Assembly: GCF_039535475.1 (NCBI RefSeq)
Contig: NZ_BAAAXG010000004.1
Coordinates: forward strand, 1-64,000
Source of the DNA: Streptomyces showdoensis
Lineage (GTDB): Bacteria; Actinomycetota; Actinomycetes; Streptomycetales; Streptomycetaceae
Reading direction: 5' to 3'
DNA length: 64,000 bases
Below, piece after piece: positions 42,686 to 47,113 of the stretch. Every line of letters starts with the position of its first letter. Position 1 is the stretch's first letter. Made by a program: the position numbers and the translations under genes. The notes under the pieces are model-generated. The model ran no database searches and was not told the origin of the DNA. It was given only the letters and a program-made list of their open reading frames with translations.

Positions 42686-43122
42686 TCACCCCCGCCGACG
42701 AGAAGCTGCTGCGCCGTGCCGTCGACCTCGCCGCCCGCGCCGTCACCCTCGGCGACGCACCGTACGGCTCGCTGCTCGCCGCACCCGACGGCACCGTCCT
42801 CGCCGAGGCGCACAACACGGTGCGCCGGGACGACGACATCACCGCCCACCCGGAGCTGAAGCTGGCCCGCTGGGCGGCGAGCGAACTCGACCGCGAGACC
42901 GCCGCCCGCACCACGATGTACACCAGCTGCCAGCCCTGCGGCATGTGTGCGGGCGCTCTGGTGCGCTCCGGCCTCGGCCGGGTCGTCTTCGCGCTCTCCA
43001 CGGAACAACTGGTCGCGCTCAACCCGGAGTCGGGCGCCTGGCCGACCGTGCCGCAGGACGGCCCGGCCCTGTTCGACGCCGCCCGAGGCCCCATCGAGTC
43101 GTACTACGGGGCGAAGGGCTGA
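42682..43122 (+). CDS. Nucleoside/guanine deaminase-like (CMP/dCMP deaminase family) protein
   Basis: 146 residues, zinc-dependent deaminase fold. The metal site is present: H-P-E in ITAHPELKLARWAAS near 55 (family usually H-A-E) and the PCxxC motif in CQPCGMCAGALVRSG near 90. The GTG at 42682 overlaps the LLM stop. Related proteins deaminate guanine, cytosine or nucleoside analogues. The fixed pairing with an F420 enzyme and Lrp regulator suggests a catabolic or detoxifying role rather than nucleotide salvage. Confidence 0.87.
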   Translation: MITPADEKLLRRAVDLAARAVTLGDAPYGSLLAAPDGTVLAEAHNTVRRDDDITAHPELKLARWAASELDRETAARTTMYTSCQPCGMCAGALVRSGLGRVVFALSTEQLVALNPESGAWPTVPQDGPALFDAARGPIESYYGAKG

Positions 43123-43148
43123 CGCGCGAACCGCCCGCCGAAAAAGCG

Positions 43149-43193
43149 TTGTCCACCCGGGCCCGCTTCTCCCTAGACTCCCCGAAGCGGGCC
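43149..43193 (+). promoter_or_regulatory. Promoter candidate with overlapping 10-bp inverted repeat
   Basis: TTGTCC (43149-43154) and TAGACT (43174-43179) are spaced 19 nt. GGCCCGCTTC (43160-43169) and GAAGCGGGCC (43184-43193) are perfect arms that bracket the -10, so the repeat could be an operator or a 5' hairpin for the leader-EF-G transcript. Confidence 0.5.
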
Positions 43194-43240
43194 GACAGGC
43201 CCGACCCGTCACCACCGCAGAGCCACGAAGGGAGCCGACC

Positions 43241-43345
43241 GTGCGTGCCCACGTCACCACCGCCGCCGTCGTCTCCCGCGCCCGGTACGACGTGATCCTG
43301 GCCTCTTCGTCCGTCCGGTGCCGGCTGCGCGGCCGGCACCGCTGA
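43241..43345 (+). CDS. Leader peptide (34 residues) upstream of the EF-G paralogue
   Basis: GTG at 43241 with GGGAG 6-7 nt upstream, TGA at 43343-43345. The peptide starts MRAHVTTAAVVSRARYDVIL and ends VRCRLRGRHR, with five Arg codons and one Cys codon in the last nine. It lies 62 nt after a promoter candidate and 111 nt before the EF-G paralogue. Its last eight codons and stop overlap a perfect 10-bp hairpin. This is the classic layout of a regulatory upstream ORF. It could sense ribosome stalling (drug) or an amino acid (Arg or Cys supply); it also weakly resembles the short Arg/Cys leader peptides seen in streptomycetes. Confidence 0.55.
   Translation: MRAHVTTAAVVSRARYDVILASSSVRCRLRGRHR
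43316..43341 (+). promoter_or_regulatory. Attenuator-like hairpin at the end of the leader ORF
   Basis: CGGTGCCGGC (43316-43325) pairs perfectly with GCCGGCACCG (43332-43341) around TGCGCG. The right arm reaches 2 nt before the leader stop codon, so a terminating ribosome would melt it. Confidence 0.6.
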
Positions 43346-43456
43346 CCCGCGACGAGGACGGATCCACGCACGCCTTTCCCGACTTCCGCGTGCCCGGCCC
43401 GCCGTCACGGCAATCGCGCTGCCCAGCCACCGCTTCGCACGCGAAAGACCACCATC

Positions 43457-45490
43457 ATGCGTACCACCGGAAACGCCCGCACCGCCGTCCGCAACCTCGG
43501 CATCCTGGCCCACGTCGACGCCGGCAAGACCACCCTCACCGAGCGGTTCCTCTTCCTCACCGGTGCCATCCACAAGCGCGGCGAGGTCCACGACGGCACC
43601 ACCGTCACCGACTTCGACCCGCAGGAGCGCGACCGCGGCATCACCATCTCCGCCGCGGCCGTCAGCTGCGACTGGGCCGGACACCGGCTGAACCTGATCG
43701 ACACGCCCGGGCACGTCGACTTCTCCGACGAGGTGGAACGCGCGCTGCGCGTCCTCGACGGCGCCGTCGCCGTCTTCGACGGCGTGGCGGGCGTCGAGCC
43801 GCAGAGCGAGTCGGTGTGGCGCCAGGCCGACCGGCACGGGGTCCCGCGCATCGCCTTCGTCAACAAGCTCGACCGCGCGGGCGCCGACCTCGACACCGCC
43901 GTGCACTCCCTGCGCACCCGGCTCGGCACCGTACCGCTGCCCGTCCAGCTCCCCATCGGCAGCGAAGCCGCCTTCACCGGCGTCGTGGACCTGGTCCGCA
44001 TGCGGGCGTACGCGTGGCCGGACGGGGCCGACACCTGCACCGAGGGTCCCGTGCCCGAGGAGCTGCGGGACGAGGCCGCACGCCGCCGGCGCCGGCTGAC
44101 GGAGACGGTCGCGGAACTGCACGCCGCCGCCCTGGAGGAGTACTGCGAGCTCGGCACGCTCACGGAGCCCACGCTGGCCGCCGCGCTGCGCGACCTCACC
44201 CTCTCCGGCGAGGCCGTCGTCGTGCTCTGCGGCTCCGCCTACCGCAACCGCGGCATCGAACCGCTGCTCGACGCCGTCGTCGCCTACCTGCCCGCGCCGA
44301 CGGACCTGCCGCCGGTCCGCGGGGACCGCCCCGCCGACCCGGAGGCGCCGTTCACCGCGCTCGCCTTCAAGGTGAGCGCCACGCCCACCGGCCGCCTGAC
44401 CTACCTCCGCGTCTACGCGGGAACGATCCGCAAGGGGGACACCGTGCTCGACACCACCGCGCGCCGCAGCGAACGGATCGCCCGGATCCTGCGGGTCCAG
44501 GCCGACCGGACCACGGAGGCGGACCGGGCCGTGGCCGGCGACATCGTCGCCGTCGTCGGCCCGAAGGCCGCCCGCGCCGGTGCCACGCTCTGCGCCCCGG
44601 ACGCGCCCATGCTGCTCGAACCGCCCGTCTCCGCCGACCCGGTCGTCTCCGTGGCCGTCGAGGCCCGGCGGGGCCTCGACACCGAACGCCTCGCCGCCGC
44701 CCTGGCCCGCCTCGCCGAGGAGGACCCGTCGCTGGTCGTGCGCACCGACCCGGAATCGGGCCAGACGGTGCTGTCCGGCCTGGGCGAGCTGCACCTGGAG
44801 GTGGCGGTGGAGAAGCTGCGCCGCGCCCAGGGCCTGGAGGTCACGGTGGGCCGGCCGCGCGTGGCGTACCGGGAGACCGTCGTCCGGGGCGTCACCGGAC
44901 TCGCGTACCGGCACGTCAAACAGGACGGCGGCGCGGGCCAGTTCGCCCACGTCGTCATCGACCTCGCACCGCTGGAGGGGGCGGACCGGGAGGAGGCTCC
45001 GGGGGCGCCGGACTTCGTCTTCCGGTCGACCGTCACGGGCGGCCGCGTCCCGCAGGAGTTCGTGCGCGCGGTCGAGGCCGGCTGCCGCGACGCCCTCGCC
45101 GAGGGCCCGCTCGGCGGCCATCCCGTCACCGGCGTGCGCGTCACGCTCACCGACGGGGCGACCCATGTGAAGGACTCGTCCGAGCTCGCCTTCCGGGCCG
45201 CGGGCCGCTTCGCCCTCCGCGAGGCGCTCCGGACGAGCGAGCTGGCGCTGCTCGAACCGGTCGCCGAGGTCACCGTGACCGTGCCCGACAGCGCCGTCGG
45301 CTCCGTCCTCGGCGACCTGTCCGCCCGGCGCGGCCGGGTCACCGACTCGACCACCCGGGGCGGTACGGCGGTCCTGACGGCCACGGTGCCGCTGGCCGAG
45401 CTCTTCGGCTACGCGTCCCGGCTCCGCGGGCGCACCCAGGGCCGCGGGACCTTCACCACGCGTCCGTCGGGGTACGCCCCGGCCGGCTGA
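43457..45490 (+). CDS. EF-G-like translation GTPase (second EF-G / ribosomal-protection-like paralogue)
   Basis: 677 residues, shorter than housekeeping EF-G (about 700-710). GTPase motifs are G1 [13 protein letters not shown] near 19, G2 [10 protein letters not shown]3 [18 protein letters not shown]4 NKLDRAGAD. Domains II to V follow in normal order (VALTP-like [51 protein letters not shown]). It is not in an str operon but alone, downstream of a leader ORF with a hairpin. Streptomycetes carry extra EF-G/TetM-like GTPases; drug tolerance or a specialised translocase are both possible. Ends before a strong terminator. Confidence 0.88.

Positions 45491-45623: not shown

Positions 45624-47113
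<1,490 letters not shown>

Follow-up and report, generated by a model that had tools for sequence, protein, structure and literature searches.

The window, a 64,000-nucleotide stretch of Streptomyces showdoensis DNA (NZ_BAAAXG010000004.1, positions 1 to 64,000), carries a gene for a second elongation factor G (EF-G2, 677 aa) at 43457-45490. This gene and the leader features described below lie on the forward strand. The EF-G2 product scored 765.3 bits against the EF-G model TIGR00484, above the cut-off of 659.4, which agrees with the ribosome-acting GTPase named in an earlier sequence-only reading of this DNA; it stayed under the cut-off for tetracycline ribosomal protection proteins (NF012153, 371 bits vs 775). 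The gene is preceded by a GAAAG ribosome-binding site (43443-43447), and argG, coding for argininosuccinate synthase, lies convergent to it on the minus strand (45624-47093). An EF-G match was present in all 150 congeneric genomes searched, the genome of the window included. EF-G2 itself was found in at least 66 of the 150, again counting the own genome, the other copies showing 73-84% identity to it and ordinary EF-G about 50%.

Upstream of EF-G2 we found a leader ORF of 34 codons (43241-43345; VRAHVTTAAVVSRARYDVILASSSVRCRLRGRHR) that runs from a GTG start to a TGA stop (43343-43345) and is preceded by the Shine-Dalgarno (SD) sequence AAGGGAG (43228-43234), as the sequence-only reading had proposed. 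Within it lie the five codons GTG ATC CTG GCC TCT (43292-43306), hereafter the core, which encode Val-Ile-Leu-Ala-Ser in the window and Val-Ile-Leu-Val-Ser in most loci. The stem P1 (43316-43325 with 43332-43341, loop TGCGCG at 43326-43331) is a perfect 10-bp stem and covers the last codons, as had been claimed; it ends 1 nt before the stop codon and thus abuts rather than overlaps it.

Conservation of the leader and its candidate WblC-like promoter

A core and a stem arranged in the same way were present at 62 of the 66 congeneric EF-G2 loci read, the window included. The four unusable loci were L032 (adapter-like scar), L046 and L062 (contig ends) and L065, where EF-G2 has no leader and other DNA stands in its place, a case that counts against the explanation favoured below. 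The leaders of the L032 and L046 genomes were found elsewhere in the same assemblies, at L072 and L073. The adapter sequence at L032 and L072, both from one public assembly, presumably derives from a transposase adapter, and EF-G2 and its leader are probably on separate misassembled pieces there. A second comparison used the best 80 of 456 relatives with a species name, of which two were dropped for too little upstream DNA; the resulting 78 loci partly overlap the first set and span Streptomyces, Kitasatospora, Streptacidiphilus, Nonomuraea, Planotetraspora and Kribbella. P1 (at least 8 of 11 pairs) was kept in 78/78 of these named-species loci; 77 have the core, 77 the 3' element described below and 76/78 all three. 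The core is lost in Streptomyces hokutonensis (L193), which likewise counts against the favoured explanation. From the comparison between species, it is very well supported that a leader-plus-RNA element upstream of EF-G2 has been under selection.

The interval marked by the sequence-only reading begins at a −35-like hexamer, TTGTCC (43149-43154). Together with GAAAAA (43140-43145), which lies 3 nt before it, and the −10 candidate TAGACT (43174-43179), which follows after a 19-nt spacer, it makes up a candidate WblC/WhiB7-like promoter (43140-43179). The promoter proposed earlier can be kept as a candidate similar to those of the WblC antibiotic response; scanning 43100-43500 for a strict sigma-70 consensus gave no promoter. 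The WblC target pattern given for S. coelicolor in PMC7157823, a source available in part, is GAAAWY, 3 nt, a −35 TKGMNN, 16-19 nt and TANNNT, with the −35 as its less conserved part. A loose form of it (GAAAWN-N3-N6-N15-20-TANNNT), the only form that the window fits, occurred upstream of 47/62 leaders and in 0.13% of shuffled regions. GAAAWY with the N16-19 spacing was found at 29/62 loci (shuffles, 0) and the full pattern including the −35 TKGMNN at only 3/62 (shuffles, 0), the window being in neither group; the latter count speaks against the favoured explanation. The same source names the gene fusB (SCO6589) in a sentence listing genes activated by WblC together with their paralogues. Its place in that sentence leads us to take it as one of the activated genes, which the available text does not say outright (PMC7157823), and SCO6589 is assumed to be the orthologue of EF-G2 in the window.

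Leader ORF and RNA fold

An SD sequence and start codon were found in 61 of the 62 first-set loci. The first SD-linked start, taken in any frame, was in frame with the core in 59/61 first-set and 77/77 named-species loci (L053, L160, L193 and L204 left unscored), over in-frame start-to-core distances of 18 to 72 nt. The exceptions were L034 and L055, each with a start-like codon ahead of the in-frame one; L053 has GGG at the expected start codon position, which counts against the favoured explanation. Within the core, the Val codon was GTG in 62/62 loci, for a homozygosity of 0.47 predicted from codon usage. Ser was kept in 62/62 by TCT (34) or TCC (28) and never by TCG, though TCG is the commonest Ser codon in EF-G2. 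The spacing from the core to the P1 loop was 33 nt in 62/62. All 61 leaders with a defined stop terminate at the foot of the P1 5' arm or beyond, so that a terminating ribosome should cover that arm; the earlier suggestion that a ribosome reaching the stop melts the hairpin fits this geometry. Seven of the 61 stop before the Arg-rich end, within the P1 5' arm or at its foot, and in three leaders of a second family (L076, L081 and L107) the core-to-loop spacing is altered and a different frame runs through the P1 region, with P1 kept. These comparisons argue that the leader ORF is translated up to the core and that Val-Ile-Leu-Val-Ser, not the peptide past it, is what is conserved. The leader peptides gave no convincing family in Pfam or NCBIfam. 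An internal start before GTGTC was rejected because it occurs only with GAG before the core. Ribosomal frameshifting was also discarded: the spacing would fit, yet slippery codons are not kept.

Folding of the window sequence by itself (43200-43470) was unremarkable (z −1.54; 16/200 shuffles as good), and the claim of a stem therefore rests on comparison between species. For this, alignment A1 was made of 55 of the 62 loci, leaving out L040, L058 and L061 (variant 3' element) and L043, L047, L049 and L054 (long spacers). In A1, two-sided changes occurred at 5 of the 11 consensus pairs of P1 and 89.1% of its cells were paired, one inner pair being mismatched in 23/55 sequences. Swapping the P1 arms between species cost 2.6 kcal/mol (z −8.8, 0/3000 permutations).

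Duplex energies revealed a second, long-range helix, P2, between 43347-43361 and 43399-43410, which is interrupted in the window. Own strands paired better than swapped ones in the first set (−17.09 vs −14.62 kcal/mol, 0/5000, n=62; window −14.6) and in a second set from which 16 loci shared with the first and L173 (variant 3' element) had been excluded (−16.96 vs −13.84 kcal/mol, 0/5000, n=73), in permutations that do not remove relatedness, which can likewise favour own pairs. P2 is also kept by two-sided sequence changes, as in L026, L030 and L208, which argues that the pairing is real despite relatedness. Its column count was poor (70.1%) because bulge positions move. The variable stretch between the two strands is itself paired (z −12.2). 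After P2 comes a conserved 3' element, AAUCGCGC (AATCGCGC at 43412-43419 in the window), whose CGCGC (43415-43419) is the complement of the P1 loop GCGCG and would form a third helix, P3. The two sides were compatible with pairing in 62/62 loci of the first set and 89/90 of the second (16 loci in common), the exception being L173 and the other departures G-U wobbles. P3 stays a predicted helix because both of its sides are near-invariant. Taken jointly, P1, P2 and P3 exceeded shuffled alignments in paired cells, two-sided cells and covariation score (0/500 reach them); the 11 pairs that changed on both sides were matched or exceeded in 107/500 shuffles, which counts against the fold.

The leader SD has a partner of its own: GGGAG (43230-43234) is complementary to CUCCC (43273-43277), which lies inside the leader ORF upstream of the core. 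This leader-SD helix was stronger with own than with swapped strands (−16.8 vs −15.65 kcal/mol, 0/5000, n=60; z −4.2, 0/3000, n=61). According to the sequence comparison, P1, P2 and the leader-SD helix co-evolve, and we infer from the modelled pairings that P1, P2 and P3 adopt a pseudoknot-like fold. RNAalifold proposed a rival pairing, P0, between the core and AUCGC of the 3' element. Its fit to 58/62 loci counts against the favoured explanation; it showed no covariation (z −0.5) and is kept as an alternative only. The 5' UTR (43187-43227) can hold a GC-rich hairpin (GGGCC GACA GGCCC), for which the mean z was −0.66 over 54 loci, 21 of them below −1. Competition of the 5' UTR with the P2 3' strand was weak (119/3000) and was set aside.

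Association of the leader with EF-G2

A covariance model, R1, was built from the 24 of 62 leaders with a variable stretch of at most 110 nt between anchors. It found one clear copy in its own genome (E 6e-16), the next match having an E of 0.19. Among 51 congeneric genomes 26 were matched, 25 of which belong to the 26 with EF-G2 among the matches listed. The 26th EF-G2 genome, without an R1 match, ends at a contig edge, and in the remaining R1-matched genome, G013, EF-G2 is present and had been split in the first search. In 51 second-family genomes R1 matched 10, eight with EF-G2 and two (G468 and G416) with an EF-G2 ORF that looks truncated or frame-broken; in G469, one of the eight, more than 1 kb separates the leader from EF-G2. 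Clear R1 matches in the 102 genomes thus trace to EF-G2 or to apparently decayed copies of it, for G012 and G017 via broken assemblies, and no match before another gene was seen in these genomes save at the misassembled L072.

At L215 and L216, leader and fold are kept before EF-G2 copies with an ORF that seems truncated or frame-broken. By eye, P2 of the apparently decayed L216 is a compact, plain short hairpin. EF-G paralogues of another family, 54-55% identical to EF-G2, occur at L089 and L092. Within about 450 nt upstream, on the reverse strand, they have a different leader ORF, ending in HRFTLASIAARG and HRFTLASTAARG, respectively, with an A-rich promoter-like stretch before it and similar hairpin-prone DNA after it. 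The arrangement may be another leader switch, independent of the first, upstream of an EF-G paralogue. Positions 1-1280 of L213 hold a further EF-G paralogue (56%) with a promoter-like TAAAACCCGTGG...TACGCT and, by eye, no such leader ORF.

Possible readings of the leader and their meaning

We consider it rather probable that EF-G2 is regulated in cis by the 5' leader of its mRNA, in a way that depends on ribosome position. The leading edge of a ribosome lies at its mRNA entrance, and this position was used for placing ribosomes relative to P1. With the P site on the Val or the Ser of the core, the leading edge would just reach the foot of P1. The P1-P2-P3 fold would stay intact when a ribosome slows down or stalls at the core, or when the leader is not translated, and a ribosome finishing the leader would cover the P1 5' arm and open P1. 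If the leader resembles other antibiotic-induced ones in this respect, EF-G2 expression would be permitted when it is folded and lowered when it is unfolded; as a net result, WblC-driven transcription would be gated by the translation state. Such a ribosome-gated reading of the leader is likely, and a dependence of RNA stability on ribosome position fits both the geometry and the covariation, as judged from sequence comparison and the predicted fold.

As to the output, no terminator-like site was found in 43100-43500, and a stretch with five T in 8 nt occurred between P1 and EF-G2 at only 11/62 loci. The EF-G2 ribosome-binding site showed no co-evolution with the spacer (z +1.6), the 3' element (z +1.7), the core (z −0.9) or the P1 and P2 strands (z +0.7 and +0.4). 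The predicted accessibility of the EF-G2 SD was the same under three ribosome positions, including those with core and stop masked (0.44, 0.44 and 0.44), and that of the start codon was hardly altered (0.31, 0.27 and 0.29). These accessibility values, and the failure to find a terminator-like or strict sigma-70 site, weigh against the favoured explanation. Because the EF-G2 ribosome site had no partner among the elements tested, we prefer control via completion of transcription or survival of the mRNA, with early termination or mRNA decay as the presumed output. The variable stretch contains more C than G in 55/58 loops (C 0.41, G 0.30; EF-G2 coding sequence, C 0.36, G 0.38). Rho loading on it was not adopted as an explanation because the stretch is itself paired.

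The switch in pairing that the sequence-only reading had envisaged is too simple for these results, since P1 is part of a larger P1-P2-P3 arrangement, and neither a terminator nor a co-evolving sequestration of the EF-G2 ribosome-binding site was found. It had also missed P2, the 3' CGCGC element and the leader-SD helix. A lack of conservation, which it had named as refuting its proposal, was not borne out, as ORF and stem proved conserved. Its observation is confirmed and its interpretation as a whole is partly supported.

Under a narrower version of the ribosome-gated reading, which we regard as possible though doubtful, the element measures translocation capacity, so that its input would be the activity of the very factor family that it controls. 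The strong pseudoknot at the mRNA entrance, just past the nascent Val-Ile-Leu-Val-Ser segment, would need EF-G-driven unwinding. Where EF-G activity is short, as with fusidic acid, tetracycline or limitation of the factor, the ribosome would pause at the core, the knot would stay folded and spare EF-G would be made. It is rather unlikely that the leader is instead an RNA that binds a ligand or a protein, in the manner of a riboswitch or for autoregulation, with the ORF only overlapping it and translation doing no more than helping or hindering its folding. The resemblance of P1-P2-P3 to an aptamer-like pseudoknot, the near-invariance of loop and 3' element and the invariance of the core GTG at the nucleotide level would suit such an RNA. 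In contrast, changes in start-to-core length preserve the frame, an SD and a start are almost always present (61/62), Ser is kept through two codons, and no Rfam family exceeded its gathering threshold in 43000-43700, the only region searched (best 19.4 bits vs 53.4).

In erm-type regulation, a stalled leader ribosome releases a sequestered ribosome site. Translation attenuation of this kind, with leader RNA sequestering the EF-G2 ribosome site until a ribosome stalls, would use the same anatomy of leader ORF plus hairpins, and a possible SD hairpin can be made out by inspection at several loci. However, the EF-G2 ribosome-binding site has no co-evolving partner among those tested and the ribosome-position simulations gave no clear change in accessibility, and we judge this mechanism unlikely. 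A classical attenuator responding to amino-acid or Arg/Cys limitation, read through the C-terminal Arg-rich codons, is highly improbable. Most first-set leaders do have an Arg-rich end such as RCRLRGRHR, but the early stops in 7/61 leaders and the changed frame in L076, L081 and L107 speak against this end as the sensor, and the Arg-rich codons themselves form P1.

Among known systems, the uORF attenuator of whiB7/wblC is alike in its place in the WblC circle, its leader ORF and an RNA structure that reads the translation state. Its switch consists of a Rho-independent terminator and an antiterminator according to the portion of the review PMC11550727 that was available, whereas in the EF-G2 leader no terminator was found and a P1-P2-P3 pseudoknot-like element is present. 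The toiL uORF of E. coli topAI-yjhQ senses ribosome-targeting drugs by stalling and alters RNA structure; the proposal in the available part of PMC12121999 is that it acts on the ribosome-binding site of topAI, and a pairing of that kind is not supported for the EF-G2 leader. In S. coelicolor, the leaders of are5sc, which is counted in the WblC regulon, and of tiaA resemble the EF-G2 leader as Streptomyces uORFs that precede ribosome-protecting factors, and differ in being short (MLV and MVGDDDISG), in their predicted terminator switches and in a start-codon stall (PMC12421871, available in part). The ilvB-II motif of Corynebacterium is likewise a structured leader that was found comparatively and proved to be a uORF; it differs by its Ile/Leu/Val codons, its intrinsic terminator and its gene (PMC11109978, available in part). 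The terms 'elongation factor', 'fusA' and 'EF-G' are absent from the main text of PMC8079986, on S. lividans leaders, and of PMC11109978, a survey of RNAs in 50 genomes. Our literature search returned no title or abstract describing the element; it lay outside most subscription papers, so the element may already be published. To our knowledge, a leader ORF combined with a covarying pseudoknot-like fold, with no visible intrinsic terminator or sequestration of a ribosome-binding site, is an uncommon layout.

The element may represent an RNA family that Rfam has yet to include. A second EF-G is retained by many Streptomyces and by some actinomycetes outside that genus. If the ribosome-gated reading is true, translation itself would gate the synthesis of EF-G2, in addition to transcription of the WblC type, and the element would offer an assayable handle on how actinomycetes sense ribosome trouble.
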